Virus record (IMG/VR): IMGVR_UViG_3300031696_001128
Coordinates: 1 to 29,322 of that record
DNA: 29,322 nucleotides
Reading direction: 5' to 3' (one strand)
From: a virus
A program made the position numbers and the translations under genes. Below, piece after piece: positions 1,943 to 20,287 of this stretch (the stretch's first letter is position 1; each line of letters begins with the position of its first letter). The notes beneath the pieces are model-generated. The model made no database searches. It saw nothing but the letters and a program-made list of their open reading frames with translations, and was not told the origin of the DNA.

Positions 1943-4047
1943 TTCTTTTTCTTCGGAGCTTTCGACTTCACAATCTTGAATTTCTTAGCCTTGTACTTAT
2001 TCAAATTGCCGCCCTTCTTTATTTTGAACTTCTTGGAAGCTTGGCTCTTCATGCTTCCGCCCTTCTTAATTCGATTTAGCTCGTTCTTACGCACAAGTGG
2101 TACCATGCGAACAGCCAGTCTACTAACCAGACCAGAGAACTTATGTGAAACCATTTTCTCAAGTCTCGCTTTCTCTGCTGGCGGCAATGATTTAATATCA
2201 CGACCTCTAGCAAACCGCTTCTTAATGACTGACAACGCGCCACGTTGTGCGCGTTTCTTAATTCGTGCAGGATCAGCCGCCCTTCTTGAGGCTCGCATTC
2301 TAGCAACTTTCAGCTTCTGCCTGTTGCGCCTTGCATGAAATCTACGTTTCATTCTGCCCTGAACAGAAAGTTCCTCATCGAGGGACACTTCCGCTATACT
2401 GACATTATCTTCTTCATCAGCCTCGACATCGGCTTCAATGTCCTCGATCTGATCAAACACATCAAGTTCAGAATCATCATACATACCAAGATTTATCATG
2501 TCCTCGAAAGACATGATATCGATTTCCGATTCCATCTCCAGTATCTCTACTTCAGAAAACTCGAAATTGGATGGTAAGTCTAATGCAGCGTCGGCATTGT
2601 CAGCCGCATACTTAGCCTTTGTTTTCGCGCCTACTGGTTCGTCATCTTCGTGAGGCTGGTCATAATCTTCACGGATCTTCGACTTCAATACATTCAGTTT
2701 AATCAACTCGTCACGAGTCAATGCACGAGCTTCGGGTGCATGGATGTCTCCCTGCCCAGGTGTCATATCTTTATATAACTTAGTTCCCTCGGGTGTACCC
2801 CATTCGTGCTTCTGTGCGCTGTATGGTTCCGGTTCTTCCGACACAGTTTTAATCGGCTCCAACGTCTTCAACGTGAGCTTTTCTTTACGCTTGGCAGCCT
2901 TCTTTTGCATTGATGACTTGCCTAGGCGATCTTTCATCAACAGAGCATTTCTACCAATATCACCACCCTCTTCCTTGATTTCGGTGTTTGATACTTTTCT
3001 TGCTTCAAACAAAGCCATATATGATCTTCTGTCTTTGTTCATGAAGTCTCGCATCTGTCTGTTAAACGTTCTAAGCATCAGCAGATTCATTTGATGTTCT
3101 TTCTCAAATGAAACATCTAATGCTTTATCGGCAGCTTTCCACTTGGGGTTAGACTTCACCTCGGCAGGTAACCTTGCGAGTGCCACCGAAGTAAGACCAC
3201 CAGCCGCGACGGGATGACCTAAAGACTTCGTAACATCTGCAAGTTTAACACCAAGTTCCTTGGTCAACTTACGTTGCTTGGCCAGTTGCTTGGCAGAGGC
3301 AACGAATGTTGGACCATACTCTTTCACGGGATCAATTGATTCTCGCAATCTACTCTTAGTCTCATTGGAGCGGGTAAGTTTCTGTGCCTTAATCCATCGA
3401 GCAGCTTTATAATTCCTAGGAGGTGTTTTAGTCCATGCACCGATTTTTCGATATACGTCAAGAACGGCGCCCTTGTAATTAGAGTCTGTATTGTTGTCTA
3501 CAACATGAAAGGTGCCTGCGCCGAAGAGATTTTGAAATTTGCCAATGTTGTTCTGGACTCTCTGCCACATCTTAGAAACTTGGGCCTGTGGCATAGTCCG
3601 TTCGCGATCCAGATTTCGGTCTTGTGCAGTTGTTTCACTTGTGTTAACAAAGATCATTGCACAATCATAGCCAAGCTCTTCTAGTCCTTTCTTCTGCCCT
3701 GCAATCTTGTTGTAGTCTTTGCCTGTGCCGTCAATGATCAGACCGATTCTTCCATCGATATATCCTGTCTGTCTCATTTTGGTTAACTTCTTGGCTCTAT
3801 CTCTAAGTGACTGACCCTTAGTTGTGAAAATGTTCTCCGGGGATGCTTCTAATCCAGCTTTCTTCAGTGCTATTTCAAATGCGATGTCCGAATTTACAAG
3901 TTTCAATCCAAAGACAGTTAGGGCAGCCTTGCCGGCGATAAATGACTTACCACTACCAGGTCCGCCTGCAAGAAACACGGCTTTAAAGATGCCAGGGTCA
4001 TTGATACCCTCATCTAATTCTACGAAATCTGCGAATGTTTTATTCAT
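1939..4047 (-). CDS. P-loop kinase (polynucleotide kinase/zeta-like) with a long basic tail
   Basis: A 702-residue two-part protein. Residues 20-190 form a kinase domain of the polynucleotide kinase/zeta-toxin type (AAA_33). It has a Walker A (GGPGSGKS, about 28-35), a buried strand ending in IIDGTGKD, and an arginine-bearing lid (RNLDRERTMP) that would contact phosphates. The likely reaction is ATP-dependent phosphorylation of a nucleic-acid end or small molecule; the substrate is unknown. After an acidic middle (about 455-570), the last 130 residues are extremely basic, with paired KFKIKKGG-like repeats and a RGRD..LPPAEKARLE segment, and probably bind nucleic acid. The N-terminus MNKTFADFVELDE resembles a T4 capsid-targeting sequence with an LDE cleavage site. 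No Shine-Dalgarno precedes the ATG, and the late promoter lies so close that the mRNA may be leaderless. Confidence 0.85.
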   Translation of the reverse strand: MNKTFADFVELDEGINDPGIFKAVFLAGGPGSGKSFIAGKAALTVFGLKLVNSDIAFEIALKKAGLEASPENIFTTKGQSLRDRAKKLTKMRQTGYIDGRIGLIIDGTGKDYNKIAGQKKGLEELGYDCAMIFVNTSETTAQDRNLDRERTMPQAQVSKMWQRVQNNIGKFQNLFGAGTFHVVDNNTDSNYKGAVLDVYRKIGAWTKTPPRNYKAARWIKAQKLTRSNETKSRLRESIDPVKEYGPTFVASAKQLAKQRKLTKELGVKLADVTKSLGHPVAAGGLTSVALARLPAEVKSNPKWKAADKALDVSFEKEHQMNLLMLRTFNRQMRDFMNKDRRSYMALFEARKVSNTEIKEEGGDIGRNALLMKDRLGKSSMQKKAAKRKEKLTLKTLEPIKTVSEEPEPYSAQKHEWGTPEGTKLYKDMTPGQGDIHAPEARALTRDELIKLNVLKSKIREDYDQPHEDDEPVGAKTKAKYAADNADAALDLPSNFEFSEVEILEMESEIDIMSFEDMINLGMYDDSELDVFDQIEDIEADVEADEEDNVSIAEVSLDEELSVQGRMKRRFHARRNRQKLKVARMRASRRAADPARIKKRAQRGALSVIKKRFARGRDIKSLPPAEKARLEKMVSHKFSGLVSRLAVRMVPLVRKNELNRIKKGGSMKSQASKKFKIKKGGNLNKYKAKKFKIVKSKAPKKKK

Positions 4048-10127: not shown

Positions 10128-10724
10128 TCAATATTTTATCTTATCTAATCCCGCCGCTGATGCGGTTCTATCAAACATTGGAACAGAATCATCATATGTT
10201 TGCTCGTTCTTGTCGGCAGTTCTGCCAGCGTCTGTGATGTTCTGTTGGAATGATTCCTCTAAGTCATACAATCGCATCTTGGATCTGTCAACCCCTATCA
10301 TAAATCGTTTGTTCTCGTTGGCATTATTGTAACGGTTCTTTAATTGCTTGACCATGATATGACCCTGCGCTTCTAACTCCTCAGTGGAGATCAAGGCGAA
10401 CATCAGATCGGCCGTTGCAGGTAAACCAAAACTGTTTTTAGTTAATATTCCGTTGCAATAGAATAAGTTGTCGCCTGATACGGAGATGTCTATTGTCTCT
10501 AGGGCGCCAACTTCTTCGATGGACACAATTTCATCGTTATAAATTAGATTGGAATCCGACTTCTCGTTCTTCTCTGCTTTCTCTGCCTCCAATTTCCAAA
10601 GGGTCTCTGCCAATTCAGTTTGACTAATGTTACCAATTGAGTATCCTCGCTCGATGAGACTTCCTGCCATGGCAAAACATTTGTAAAATTGATCGTCTCT
10701 TGGAACTGTATTCATATCATTCAT
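10128..10724 (-). CDS. 41: Replicative helicase gp41, C-terminal half carrying the C-part of a split intein
   Basis: A 198-residue protein from the ATG at 10722-10724, which has GAAAGG 7 bases upstream; the frame is open to 10772, but that longer start has no ribosome site. Residues 1-59 are an extra domain not found in gp41 or in known C-inteins. Residues 60-97 are the C-part of an intein, ending DISVSGDNLFYCNGILTKN. Residues 98-198 (SFGLPATADLMFALIST onward) are the last 101 residues of the DnaB-like helicase, including VKQLKNRYNNANENKRFMIGVD, which is close to T4 gp41. Joined to the N-half, the exteins give 469 residues, against 475 in T4. Its gene overlaps the endonuclease stop by 8 bases. 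Confidence 0.9.
   Translation of the reverse strand: MNDMNTVPRDDQFYKCFAMAGSLIERGYSIGNISQTELAETLWKLEAEKAEKNEKSDSNLIYNDEIVSIEEVGALETIDISVSGDNLFYCNGILTKNSFGLPATADLMFALISTEELEAQGHIMVKQLKNRYNNANENKRFMIGVDRSKMRLYDLEESFQQNITDAGRTADKNEQTYDDSVPMFDRTASAAGLDKIKY
10434..10547 (-). mobile_element. Split intein, C-part (IC)
   Basis: Encodes residues 60-97 of the gp41 C-half. The ETIDISVSGDNLFYCNGILTKN stretch aligns with block F and block G of gp41-type split inteins, whose usual end is LTHN. The terminal Asn (10434-10436) is followed by Ser, the first C-extein residue (10431-10433). The penultimate residue is Lys instead of His. Confidence 0.85.
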
Positions 10725-11766
10725 GTGTGTACCTTTCATTAATATCTTTCCTGATTTCGTTTTGTTTTGCATTCAAATCATCATCTGACCACACGATATG
10801 ACAATCAAACATTCTTGATTCTATCAGATCATATCTCAAGTTATCTGCTGCTAATGCGGTGTCATAATCAACAAATGGACTATTCCAATCTTCCCTTTTT
10901 CTGGGATGCCAGAACGTACCATTGTATTCCACCACAATTTTTAGACTAGGTATACAAAAATCTAAAAATTTGCCTTCGTTTTTCTTCTGCGGCTTTCTTA
11001 GAAAGAATTCGCGTGAACCATTAATACCAAAATATATATCTTCTCTGGATATTCCAAGCTGGCGGCAATATTTGTATAGTGGTATAAAGAATTTTATTGA
11101 TTCTTTTGAAACAGTGCCGCCCGTTCTTCTATTGGATAAGTTATTTCTCATACTTTCTTTATATGTTTCAATTTTTGAAAAATACTTAGCAGTCCCTTCC
11201 TGTTCACCGTGTCTGGCAATGAACCCCTCCAAACTAGTACTACATTCTAATAGATAGGGTGATCTTAATAATTCGGCCTCTTCAACAGTATACCCACGTG
11301 ATGTCCAATAATCTAATGAAATCTTTATCTTAGCAGAGTGATTGGCATATGATGCAGGGCTTCTTCTTTTTGCGTAACTTGATTGTATCTTGGATATAGC
11401 AGAAATTGCCTCATCTAGGGTATATCCCTTATTGATCCAATACGACTTCGTAAGATTAGAAACAACTTCAGCCCTTGGGCGTTTTGATAATGCAGATTTA
11501 TATTGTACCACCCGTTCTTCGCCATATCGAATTCGCAATTTTTCATATTGCCCCGAGGAGAAATATTCATCATATTTCTCCTGTATCGCGCTTTTCTCAT
11601 ATCGATATGATATATCAGATAATACTTGTAGCCTTCTTTTCATTTTTGACCAAGAGTATCCGGCTTCTATAAACACATCTAATTGCAAAGACAATAAGTC
11701 CGGATAATTTGACCCGTTTATTATCCGTACAAATTCTACTTTTTCTGTTGTTTTACATTTTCTCAT
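10717..11766 (-). CDS. Free-standing homing endonuclease, Vsr-like (EDxHD-type), between the gp41 halves
   Basis: A 349-residue protein. The C-terminal part (about 250-330) has the fold signature of Vsr-like nucleases: Asp269 (FLDF), Glu280 and His287 (VVEYNGTFWHP), and Asp308 in a following helix. This matches the endonuclease family first described between split-intein gene halves in marine metagenomes. The N-terminal 200 residues hold at least two copies of a helical module (YWINKGYTLDEA at 109-120, YWTSRGYTVEEA at 153-164) and a third looser one near 32-45, probably DNA-binding. It would cut intein-less gp41 genes to spread the arrangement. Codon use is more AT-rich than its neighbours. 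The start codon lies inside a hairpin with a late promoter. Confidence 0.85.
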   Translation of the reverse strand: MRKCKTTEKVEFVRIINGSNYPDLLSLQLDVFIEAGYSWSKMKRRLQVLSDISYRYEKSAIQEKYDEYFSSGQYEKLRIRYGEERVVQYKSALSKRPRAEVVSNLTKSYWINKGYTLDEAISAISKIQSSYAKRRSPASYANHSAKIKISLDYWTSRGYTVEEAELLRSPYLLECSTSLEGFIARHGEQEGTAKYFSKIETYKESMRNNLSNRRTGGTVSKESIKFFIPLYKYCRQLGISREDIYFGINGSREFFLRKPQKKNEGKFLDFCIPSLKIVVEYNGTFWHPRKREDWNSPFVDYDTALAADNLRYDLIESRMFDCHIVWSDDDLNAKQNEIRKDINERYTHE

Positions 11767-11797
11767 ATCATTAAATCTGTTGTTCGTTTAATGATAT
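11765..11797 (-). promoter_or_regulatory. Perfect hairpin covering the endonuclease start codon
   Basis: On the minus strand ATATCATTAAA (11797-11787) pairs perfectly with TTTAATGATAT (11775-11765) around an 11-base loop. The 3' arm includes the first two bases of the ATG at 11766. In transcripts from upstream, the start would be hidden. A transcript begun at the overlapping late promoter (near 11789) keeps only 3 of the 11 bases of the 5' arm and cannot form the stem. Confidence 0.75.
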
Positions 11798-11802
11798 TTA
11801 TA
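11795..11802 (-). promoter_or_regulatory. T4-type late promoter of the homing endonuclease
   Basis: A perfect TATAAATA octamer that overlaps the 5' arm of the hairpin by 3 bases. The expected start is near 11789, giving a 23-base leader. Confidence 0.75.
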
Positions 11803-11826
11803 CAAATTGTGATTTTAACGACAGAT

Positions 11827-13203
11827 TTAATCATGCGAAGTGTTCATTTTAGAACCAATTTGAAGACCAGTATTAACAGATTTACGACCCGAGGAGGTGG
11901 GAAAAACATGGTCTTTCGATACGATGATAGTCTTACCTGATTTTAGAAGTATTTTAACACAGTCTTTTGTTTTTGGATGATGCACTTTCATAACAGTTTT
12001 GTAATCATCGTTTGTTTTGATCTGGTCCCCGAATACCACATCTCCCATACGTTTTGTTTCGCCGTTTCGCATTGTAACCTTCTCGTCAACGAATATACAT
12101 TCTGAGGTATCCGTCAGTTCAACATCACTATTATTGTAGCCGCCGCGGGTGGTCTGTGTCGCTGTTACAATTGGCACATTCATCTCAACTGCAAGACCAC
12201 GCAATTCTTCGGCGATACTCTTAATGATGGTATATGAATTGGCATTCGAACTACCACCAAATCGGCTGCTCAAACAAATATTCAGATAGTCAATGAAGAT
12301 AATATCAGGAGCAAAAGTTCGTTTGAGTCTCAACTCATCCAATAATGCCTTGAAGTGACCAGCATGTGCAGAAGCGGTGGGATACTCTTTGATGATTAGT
12401 CGACCATCAACTTTATCTTGAATTTTCTTGACTCTATCATCAAACATTTTCTTGGATAAAGATTTCAGATCACCTATAGCTACGTTCATCATGTTAGCAT
12501 CGATTCGTTCGGCAATACGTTCTTCTGCCATCTCACATGTGATGTATAAAACATTCTTGCCCTGTGCAATACACGAGGCTGCCATGTGACACATGAACAG
12601 AGATTTTCCAACACCTGTGCCGGCAAGTGCGACATTCAATGTCTTGTTTCTAAGACCACCATCCGTGATGCGATTGAAATAATCGAGATCGAATGGAATC
12701 ATCTCTTCTACTCTATGGTAGAATTCATACCGCGCATCGGCATTCTCTAAATAATCGTGGCCGACATTATTATCAAAGCCAACACCAAGTGCTTCGGATA
12801 GGATACTAGGCAATGCGCCTTTGTCCATCGACTTATCACCACCATCGATAATCTGAATCGATTGCATAATGGCGTTGTACAATGCCTTGTCTTTACAGAA
12901 TTTCTCTGTCTCATCTAGGAGCCATGCTTGCTCTACACCCACATCGGGCTGCATCGCATTGATTAAGGTCTCACATGTACCATAAAGTTCTTCAGTGACT
13001 TGGCGATTTTCTTGCAGTGCAATCAACAGGGCAGACTTAGATGGCACCGAGTTGTATTTGTCCACAAAATTATTAACAGCATTGAATACTTGGCGAGTTG
13101 CTGGCTCGCCGAAGTACTCTTCTTTCATAAAGGGTATTACTTTTCGTATATACTCTTCATCATTACAAAGGTGTGCAATTATAATTTGCTCAATATTATC
13201 CAT
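11827..13203 (-). CDS. 41: Replicative helicase gp41, N-terminal half carrying the N-part of a split intein
   Basis: A 458-residue protein. Residues 1-368 are the N-terminal and most of the RecA-like domain of a DnaB-family helicase close to T4 gp41. They include a Walker A (GTGVGKS, 195-201), a Walker B strand (DIIFIDYLN, 300-308) and the sensor region VTATQTTRGG. The extein ends DVELTDTSE. Residues 369-458 are the N-part of an intein, beginning with Cys369. The helicase would unwind DNA at the fork, with a primase, only after splicing with the product of 10128-10724. The ATG overlaps the stop of the small Cys-rich gene upstream by 8 bases. Confidence 0.92.
   Translation of the reverse strand: MDNIEQIIIAHLCNDEEYIRKVIPFMKEEYFGEPATRQVFNAVNNFVDKYNSVPSKSALLIALQENRQVTEELYGTCETLINAMQPDVGVEQAWLLDETEKFCKDKALYNAIMQSIQIIDGGDKSMDKGALPSILSEALGVGFDNNVGHDYLENADARYEFYHRVEEMIPFDLDYFNRITDGGLRNKTLNVALAGTGVGKSLFMCHMAASCIAQGKNVLYITCEMAEERIAERIDANMMNVAIGDLKSLSKKMFDDRVKKIQDKVDGRLIIKEYPTASAHAGHFKALLDELRLKRTFAPDIIFIDYLNICLSSRFGGSSNANSYTIIKSIAEELRGLAVEMNVPIVTATQTTRGGYNNSDVELTDTSECIFVDEKVTMRNGETKRMGDVVFGDQIKTNDDYKTVMKVHHPKTKDCVKILLKSGKTIIVSKDHVFPTSSGRKSVNTGLQIGSKMNTSHD
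11830..12099 (-). mobile_element. Split intein, N-part (IN)
   Basis: Encodes 90 residues starting with the nucleophile Cys (codon 12097-12099). Block A-like CIFVDEKVTM leads on to MGDVVFGDQI and the block B-like IIVSKDHVFPT, whose His is the conserved one. The length and the ending NTGLQIGS match the N-parts of gp41-1 and gp41-8 type split inteins. Confidence 0.88.
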
Positions 13204-18516: not shown

Positions 18517-18524
18517 TATTTATA
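18517..18524 (-). promoter_or_regulatory. T4-type late promoter before regA
   Basis: A perfect TATAAATA octamer in the gp62-regA gap. The expected start is near 18511, giving a 45-base leader. Confidence 0.65.
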
Positions 18525-19352: not shown

Positions 19353-20287
19353 CACTTCATCTCCACGCTAGCCATAATGTCAACCAGACATGCAGTAAGA
19401 TTGATTTCTGGATCTGCTACGAAGGCTGCTTTGTATTGATAGTCAGCAATCAATAGTACCAAGTGTGGCACCTGCTTTACTTTGTCGATCAATGCATCAT
19501 ACACTTTACGATAAATGCCCTGCGGATCACTGTCAACGTTGTTGGCAACCCACTGGCGCATCTTCTTAAAGTCTTTATCTTTGAGACTGTCGATCAATCC
19601 CTTAGTGTTGATTTCAGCAAGGTTGCTTAGTATACCTTCATCGATGGTACCACCAACAGAGTATCGCTGAAGTTCATTAAGAACCCTACGGTAGTCGGGA
19701 AAGTATTTCTTGAGCAGTTCAGCAAGAACCTTATCTGAATATTTTACACCCTCTTCATCGAGGATAAACTTCATTCGCTTGTGAAAACGAGCAGCCATTT
19801 CTGGTCGTGCTGATCGATCAAGTTTGAAATCAATTACAGTGGTCCGACTGTGCAGTGGCTCAATGATTCGATTCTTGAAGTTGCATGTGAAAATGAACCG
19901 ACAGTTCTTTGAGAACTCCTCAATGAAACCACGCAGAGCAGGCTGAGTTGAGTTGGGATTTAAGTAATCAGCCTCATCGAGAATGACCACTTTTGGCTTG
20001 TTCTCAAATGACATCGTGCTTGCAAAGTTCTTAATCTTGGTACGCAGGACATCGATACCAGACTCTTCGGAACCGTTAACAACAATGTAATCACATCCCA
20101 ATTCATGACACAGGGCACGGGCAACCGTAGTCTTGCCCGTGCCCGCGGTGCCGCACAACAACATGTTTGGAATCTCGCCTGCTTTTACAAACTGCTTGAA
20201 TACTTTTAGCTGCGAGTCGGGTAAGATACACTCGTCTAATGTTCGTGGGCGATATCGCTCAACGAATAAAAACTCTTTGTTTTCCAT
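19352..20287 (-). CDS. 44: Clamp loader large subunit gp44 (AAA+)
   Basis: A 311-residue AAA+ ATPase (319 in T4). The N-terminus FVERYRPRTLDECILP is the classic clamp-loader start. The Walker A is GTAGTGKT (46-53), the Walker B VVILDEADYL, and sensor/arginine-finger residues lie in EPLHSRTTVIDF (Arg in the SRx motif). It works as a tetramer with gp62. The frame is open to 20302, but GGAG lies 5 bases before the ATG at 20285-20287, so I use that start. It is followed by MazG-like and gp62 genes with overlapping ends, indicating coupled translation. Confidence 0.96.
   Translation of the reverse strand: MENKEFLFVERYRPRTLDECILPDSQLKVFKQFVKAGEIPNMLLCGTAGTGKTTVARALCHELGCDYIVVNGSEESGIDVLRTKIKNFASTMSFENKPKVVILDEADYLNPNSTQPALRGFIEEFSKNCRFIFTCNFKNRIIEPLHSRTTVIDFKLDRSARPEMAARFHKRMKFILDEEGVKYSDKVLAELLKKYFPDYRRVLNELQRYSVGGTIDEGILSNLAEINTKGLIDSLKDKDFKKMRQWVANNVDSDPQGIYRKVYDALIDKVKQVPHLVLLIADYQYKAAFVADPEINLTACLVDIMASVEMK

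Follow-up and report, generated by a model that had tools for sequence, protein, structure and literature searches.

The leader between the two halves of a broken gp41 replicative helicase gene in a marine T4-like phage is very probably a translational switch, whose state depends on where the transcript starts and which acts on the free-standing homing endonuclease gene that sits within the break. The DNA analysed (hereafter the window) is the whole 29,322-nucleotide IMG/VR virus record IMGVR_UViG_3300031696_001128. The argument rests on a T4-type late promoter nested in an RNA stem, on the persistence of this arrangement with compensatory changes in diverged relatives, and on predicted folds in which the endonuclease start is closed on read-through RNA and open on late RNA.

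The split helicase locus

Residues 1-368 of the helicase N-terminal half match the DnaB-like helicase phrog_19 in a profile search (1.4e-105), and residues 112-187 of the C half match positions 522-596 of the same profile. The split intein is of the gp41-1 type, with IntN and IntC on separate ORFs that flank the endonuclease ORF; the IntN profile matches the gp41-1 intein 6qaz at 4e-17, and IntN and IntC joined match the gp41-1 split intein 6qaz (PDB) at 5e-17, the joined intein ending in ILTKN. On the minus strand, a 60-nt gap lies between the helicase N-half stop codon and the endonuclease ATG (Table 1), and the gene for IntC and the gp41 C half overlaps the 3' end of the endonuclease gene by 56 bp. 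The neighbours are T4-type replication genes (uvsX, gp43 polymerase, regA, clamp loader, and clamp). From its position beside them, and on the same strand between the gp41 halves, the endonuclease gene is predicted to lie inside an early/middle transcription unit. Given the overlap of the C half with the endonuclease gene, and its place directly after the N half in relatives that have no endonuclease, early RNA would have to run through the endonuclease gene.

Table 1. Features of the split-helicase locus in the window, and endonuclease genes of related records that have a late promoter in a stem
Feature	Position	Strand	Remarks
gp41 helicase N-terminal half with IntN	11827-13203	-	458 aa; IntN 12099-11830; stop codon 11829-11827
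Outer stem, 5' arm ATTAAATCTGT	11821-11831	-	Runs across the helicase N-half stop codon
Late promoter, T4-type, TATAAATA	11795-11802	-	Exact match; sits in the loop of the outer stem
Inner stem, 5' arm ATATCATTAAA	11787-11797	-	Shares 3 bases with the promoter
Predicted late transcript start (+1)	11789	-	Inferred from T4 geometry, box at about -13 to -6
Outer stem, 3' arm ACAGATTTAAT	11770-11780	-	Inverted-repeat partner of ATTAAATCTGT
Inner stem, 3' arm TTTAATGATAT	11765-11775	-	Includes A11766 and T11765 of the ATG
Free-standing homing endonuclease	10717-11766	-	349 aa; ATG 11766-11764
IntC (to about 10434) with gp41 C-terminal half	10128-10772	-	214 aa
Unrelated GIY-YIG and HNH/Vsr-type endonuclease genes, TATAAATA in a stem at the start:			
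L104	8792-9514	-	
L107	2430-3227		
L109	1915-2157		

The endonuclease is probably Vsr-like (EDxHD-type). It matches the HNH/homing endonuclease families phrog_559/3339 weakly (4e-5 and 2e-4), its C-terminal part shows a weak resemblance to Pfam Vsr that is below the cut-off (E 0.066), Foldseek returns 1vsr/1cw0 with probabilities of 0.44-0.51 and E above 1, and a PDB sequence search gave no match. Its ATG is backed by homologues at the same locus position that share the start codon and are 30-42% identical. No clear Shine-Dalgarno sequence was seen upstream of this ATG, which leaves the start codon region as the one element that could be concealed in the window; in some relatives a Shine-Dalgarno sequence does lie in or beside the stem (TGGAGG in L007, AGGA in L012). 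We note that a perfect 11-bp stem with a 5-base loop (AGGAGAAATAT, plus strand) occurs within the endonuclease reading frame, at 11556-11582 of the window.

The putative late promoter

On the minus strand the leader reads ...TTTG-TATAAATA-TCATTAAACGAACAACAGATTTAATGAT-ATG. There are eight copies of TATAAATA in the window, all on the coding (minus) strand, against 1.7 expected, and none of 100 shuffles reaches eight. One copy stands 26 nt before a spanin gene and another precedes a cytidyltransferase gene. The motif is commoner than its reversed control in six of eight related records (the exceptions are G005 and G008); it precedes the gp23 major capsid gene in one related record, and CATAAATA and AATAAATA precede gp23 in two others. 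The late promoter of the marine T4-like cyanophages (cyanomyovirus), NATAAATA, resembles the TATAAATA of T4 and KVP40 (review, PMC2984593).

Two competing stems in the leader

The anatomy described in an earlier note on this DNA is confirmed by the sequence: the exact TATAAATA overlaps a perfect 11-bp stem that covers the first two bases of the ATG. This inner stem has 11 of 11 Watson-Crick pairs and an 11-base loop. The RNA from 11797 to 11740 folds at -8.5 kcal/mol (z -4.2; 0 of 200 shuffles as good), and a perfect 11-bp stem with a loop of at most 20 bases appears in none of 4000 simulated leaders and just four times across the whole 29 kb. The further claim that late RNA loses eight of the 11 bases of the 5' arm agrees with the +1 predicted by T4 geometry. 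The earlier note does not contain a second 11-bp helix, the outer stem, which encloses the promoter in its loop, with TATAAATA downstream of its 5' arm. TTTAAT is common to the 3' arms of the two stems. A perfect 12-bp G+C-rich stem is also present in the gp44 clamp-loader gene, at 20113-20144 of the window.

The outer stem is the minimum-energy fold of the 106-nt leader RNA. In predicted folds of the read-through RNA its probability is 0.89-0.90 vs 0.07-0.08 for the inner stem, which reaches 0.94-0.98 only if the RNA is truncated from its 5' side as far as the end of the stop codon or stop+12. Neither stem is predicted to form in late RNA. On RNA initiated upstream, the modelled structure would thus cover the start codon region, and the covariation described below supports it. 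An intrinsic terminator at the leader was considered and rejected, as there is no U-tract terminator there.

Conservation and covariation in related phages

Related loci with the same gene order were gathered by intein and endonuclease profile scans, and removal of identical leaders kept 24 distinct endonuclease starts. Two contigs have a leader 100% identical to that of the window and so provide no test of conservation, for which distant relatives were needed. About 20 further distinct leaders lie between gp41 halves, before endonucleases that are mostly 30-42% identical to that of the window where aligned. Nearly all of them have TATAAATA nested in the outer stem. In most leaders this stem starts near the IntN stop codon and reaches, or comes close to, the start codon or the Shine-Dalgarno sequence belonging to it. 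The distance from TATAAATA to the ATG is 35-43 nt in most leaders (36 in the window and several others, 27 in the L039/L042 group). The exceptions as regards the promoter are L010, with TATAGATA, and L026 and VmeM-32, with weaker matches; L026 has no TATAAATA, and its CTAAGTAA is not enriched within the L026 record. Examples of stem arms are ATATCCATTATTGTTGTTA / TAACAACAATAATGGATAT (L010), TATATCCTGTGTTTG / CAAACACAGGATATA (L012), and AAATCTAGTGTTTTTGGTA / TACCAAAAACACTAGATTT (L066); the stem of L011 is that of L010 shortened in both arms, a matched insertion separating the two.

Paired substitutions in aligned leaders, proposed as a check in the earlier note, were indeed found. In an alignment of a 15-bp helix that omits the window, 84% of cells are paired (74% shuffled), 27 cells have changed on both sides (11.3 shuffled), and the covariation score is 0.336 vs 0.168 shuffled (0 of 500 shuffles) and at most 0.144 when the helix is slid. 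With the window included, 80.8% of cells are paired and the score is 0.259 vs 0.138. Related sequences can inflate the shuffle test, so that more weight belongs to the slid control and to how varied the pair types are; alignment columns 21/82, for example, hold GC, AU, GU, and UA. MAFFT misregisters some rows, which makes the counts (A6) conservative. Duplexes between upstream and downstream arms average -18.9 kcal/mol for a leader's own pairs vs -11.8 for swapped ones, and the duplex of the window has p 0.011 vs shuffles. We conclude that it is the outer helix that the relatives share and that the inner stem is a mutually exclusive extra, conspicuous in the window phage.

At loci free of endonuclease, the IntC gene comes directly after IntN and there is no such leader. 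The leader is also missing from some endonucleases of the same family (L020/L021, L048, and L022 of phage ESh36), and the stem is weak or not significant in L039/L042, L062, and L088. In the Shigella phage ESh36 (Tequatrovirus; L022 4200-4230), gp41 has an intein of the same kind and an endonuclease-like ORF overlaps the end of IntN. In the Vibrio phage vB_VmeM-32 (L004; leader at 3711-3790), the intein that splits gp41 sits elsewhere (at the P-loop), a homologue of the endonuclease lies between the halves, and a stem of about 11-13 bp overlaps a late-promoter-like TCTAAATA; uvsX is also intein-split in this phage.

Predicted accessibility of the endonuclease start

Opening the region from -15 to +6 is predicted to cost on average 10.9 kcal/mol in read-through RNA vs 3.2 kcal/mol in late RNA, and the read-through value is the higher in every one of the 23 leaders. 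When the 5' side is shuffled, the opening cost falls by half, from 11.0 to 5.5 kcal/mol (p ≤ 0.05 in 16 of the 23). The early-off, late-on logic that the earlier note had proposed is therefore well supported by the comparison of about 20 relatives, both in their covariation and in the greater predicted closure of read-through RNA, but the stem to which it was ascribed differs from the conserved one. In the window, no significant effect follows from shuffling the outer 5' arm alone (p 0.13), because the inner stem already closes the site. Ribosomes would often disrupt the outer 5' arm, since it overlaps the stop codon of a translated gene. With the ribosome footprint removed, the window leader is still predicted to be closed (8.0 kcal/mol) and many relatives, which have no backup stem, to be open (mean 4.3 kcal/mol); a double lock would consequently be a trait of the window phage rather than of the whole family.

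Proposed switch and alternative explanations

We suggest that the C half of the split helicase must be produced early and that, since this half is encoded downstream of the endonuclease, early/middle RNA of the replication operon reads through the leader and includes the endonuclease ORF. On this RNA, the outer stem would pair the region beside and including the start codon. A ribosome ending the helicase N half would cover the outer 5' arm, upon which the inner stem would form and the start would still be covered. Late in infection, a gp55-type RNA polymerase would initiate at TATAAATA and the RNA would begin about 23 nt before the ATG; such RNA would contain no part of the outer 5' arm and little of the inner one, so that both stems would be abolished and the endonuclease would be translated. 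Gene order, promoter match, both stems, conservation, covariation, and predicted folds come from sequence or computation; to these, the scheme adds a presumed promoter activity and +1, early read-through, repression, and a ribosome-driven handover between the stems. Whether the two stems together amount to a ribosome-proof double lock is a more tentative matter. In such a lock, the outer stem would silence free RNA and the inner stem would take over at ribosome termination, so that upstream translation would never open the endonuclease and only the late start would do so; the modelled folds make this possible rather than probable.

The version put forward in the earlier note, that the inner 11-bp stem alone is the switch, draws on a perfect helix far above chance and on the distant VmeM-32, where, at another gp41 site, the 5' arm overlaps TCTAAATA and the same TTTAATGATATG. 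We consider it rather unlikely, because the full read-through RNA is predicted to hold the outer stem and seldom the inner one, and because the relatives share the former and not the latter. Chance complementarity together with a chance TATAAATA might be expected of an AT-rich leader, given that 1.7 copies of the motif are expected per window; that about 20 diverged leaders repeat the design, with covariation and a nearly fixed promoter position, makes such a coincidence extremely improbable.

The repeat is symmetric about the promoter and could be imagined as a DNA operator bound by the endonuclease itself or by another factor, all the more so as T4 intron endonucleases such as I-TevI autorepress via operators that overlap late promoters (PMC2988022). 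A fixed protein site would keep its sequence, whereas here the arms diverge strongly among homologues yet stay complementary, their length (about 6 to 20 bp) and spacing vary, G-U pairs are present, and the 3' arm adjoins the start codon or Shine-Dalgarno sequence in most leaders; an operator is, in our judgement, quite improbable. RNase E processing has been reported for Aeh1 mobE and T4 segB (PMC2988022), and the stem might likewise be a processing or stability element (for example, for RNase III or RNase E on the split-helicase message) with only incidental effects on translation. We give this very little weight, because it leaves unexplained the promoter nested in the loop, the end of the stem at the start codon, and the lack of a stem at endonuclease-free loci.

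Comparison with known systems

The translational switch that we favour resembles that of I-TevI, I-TevII, and I-TevIII, in which a hairpin forms on upstream transcripts and cannot form on RNA from the gene's own late or middle promoter (PMC2988022). As in those cases, the window endonuclease is embedded in a (predicted) early/middle unit and its hairpins are specific to upstream RNA. The three T4 enzymes are, however, intron-encoded, of GIY-YIG/HNH type, and have a consensus Shine-Dalgarno sequence in the hairpin (PMC2988022), whereas the window gene is free-standing between split-intein halves and has two mutually exclusive stems. We do not treat a Shine-Dalgarno sequence in the hairpin, which the window does not have, as strictly defining, since half of the free-standing endonucleases of T4 are without one (PMC2988022). 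The same logic is known for free-standing endonucleases, namely, T4 segB and mobE of the Aeromonas phage Aeh1, which is inserted in and splits nrdA (PMC2988022, PMC3014915). Both resemble the window gene in that the start region is sequestered in a hairpin, and mobE also splits an essential metabolic gene; they differ in being of HNH or GIY-YIG type, and nothing in those papers says that a split intein rejoins the nrdA halves (PMC2988022, PMC3014915). The T4 genes e, soc, and 49 are late genes silenced on early read-through transcripts (PMC3014915); they share the regulatory logic but are the phage's own late genes and not mobile endonucleases.

Since segB and Aeh1 mobE share the logic, the novelty and independence claimed in the earlier note were too strong; what stands is that a literature search, thin on subscription papers, found no report of such a switch for a split-intein gene. 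The split-intein setting with a probably Vsr-like endonuclease, together with the double stem, appear to be unreported in the literature searched, which included few subscription papers. Two points may be new: the double lock, and how widely the module occurs in uncultured phages. Fractured genes with gp41-1-type split inteins and Vsr-like homing endonucleases were reportedly described by Dassa et al. in 2009, and the window locus is like theirs in its gene order (gp41-IntN / endonuclease / IntC-gp41) and in its intein of the gp41-1 kind.

The sequences suggest that delayed expression of selfish endonucleases recurs beyond coliphage T4, in marine split-helicase phages and in another endonuclease lineage. 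Silence of the endonuclease seems essential here, because that RNA also has to supply the downstream helicase half early in infection. The covariation provides evolutionary evidence for a mechanism otherwise known from few T4-like cases. It also seems feasible to search uncultured phages for homing endonucleases by their signature, an ORF preceded by a hairpin with a late promoter nested in it.

Nested promoters before other genes

As a control, nested stems were scored at 66 TATAAATA sites that precede ORFs, taken from the window and from five related records. Outside the gp41 endonucleases, stems with p ≤ 0.01 were found at regA (in the window and its duplicate) and at three ORFs with homing/HNH matches, and GIY-YIG or HNH/Vsr-type endonucleases account for three of the four strongest (Table 1). 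Without the gp41 endonucleases, p ≤ 0.05 is reached by 3 of 7 endonuclease genes vs 4 of 50 other genes (Fisher p 0.033; 0.0045 at p ≤ 0.01), endonuclease status being taken from profile matches, one of them weak (L109). In L104, the arms CTCTGGATTGGC/GCCAATCCAGAG cover AGAGG. Four endonuclease genes have the promoter without a stem, so that the design is common, not universal. Three candidates with TATAAATA were not counted, their stems having p 0.79 (L039) and 0.87 (L050), both GIY-YIG-type ORFs in a split uvsX, and 0.12 (L059, an endonuclease after a queE-like gene). In L039 (about 1246-1330) and L050 (about 1351-1420), uvsX contains a further split intein, after which come TATAAATA and a GIY-YIG-like ORF; in L039, ATCATCAATT/AATTGATGAT stand around the promoter, in a stem that is not significant.

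We note finally that a G+C-rich stem, GGTGG/CCACC (duplex p 0.002), holds in its loop the TATAAATA before regA (window 18517-18524 and 18466). About 35 nt separate this stem from the ATG, so that the start is left uncovered; the RegA protein is a translational repressor in its own right.
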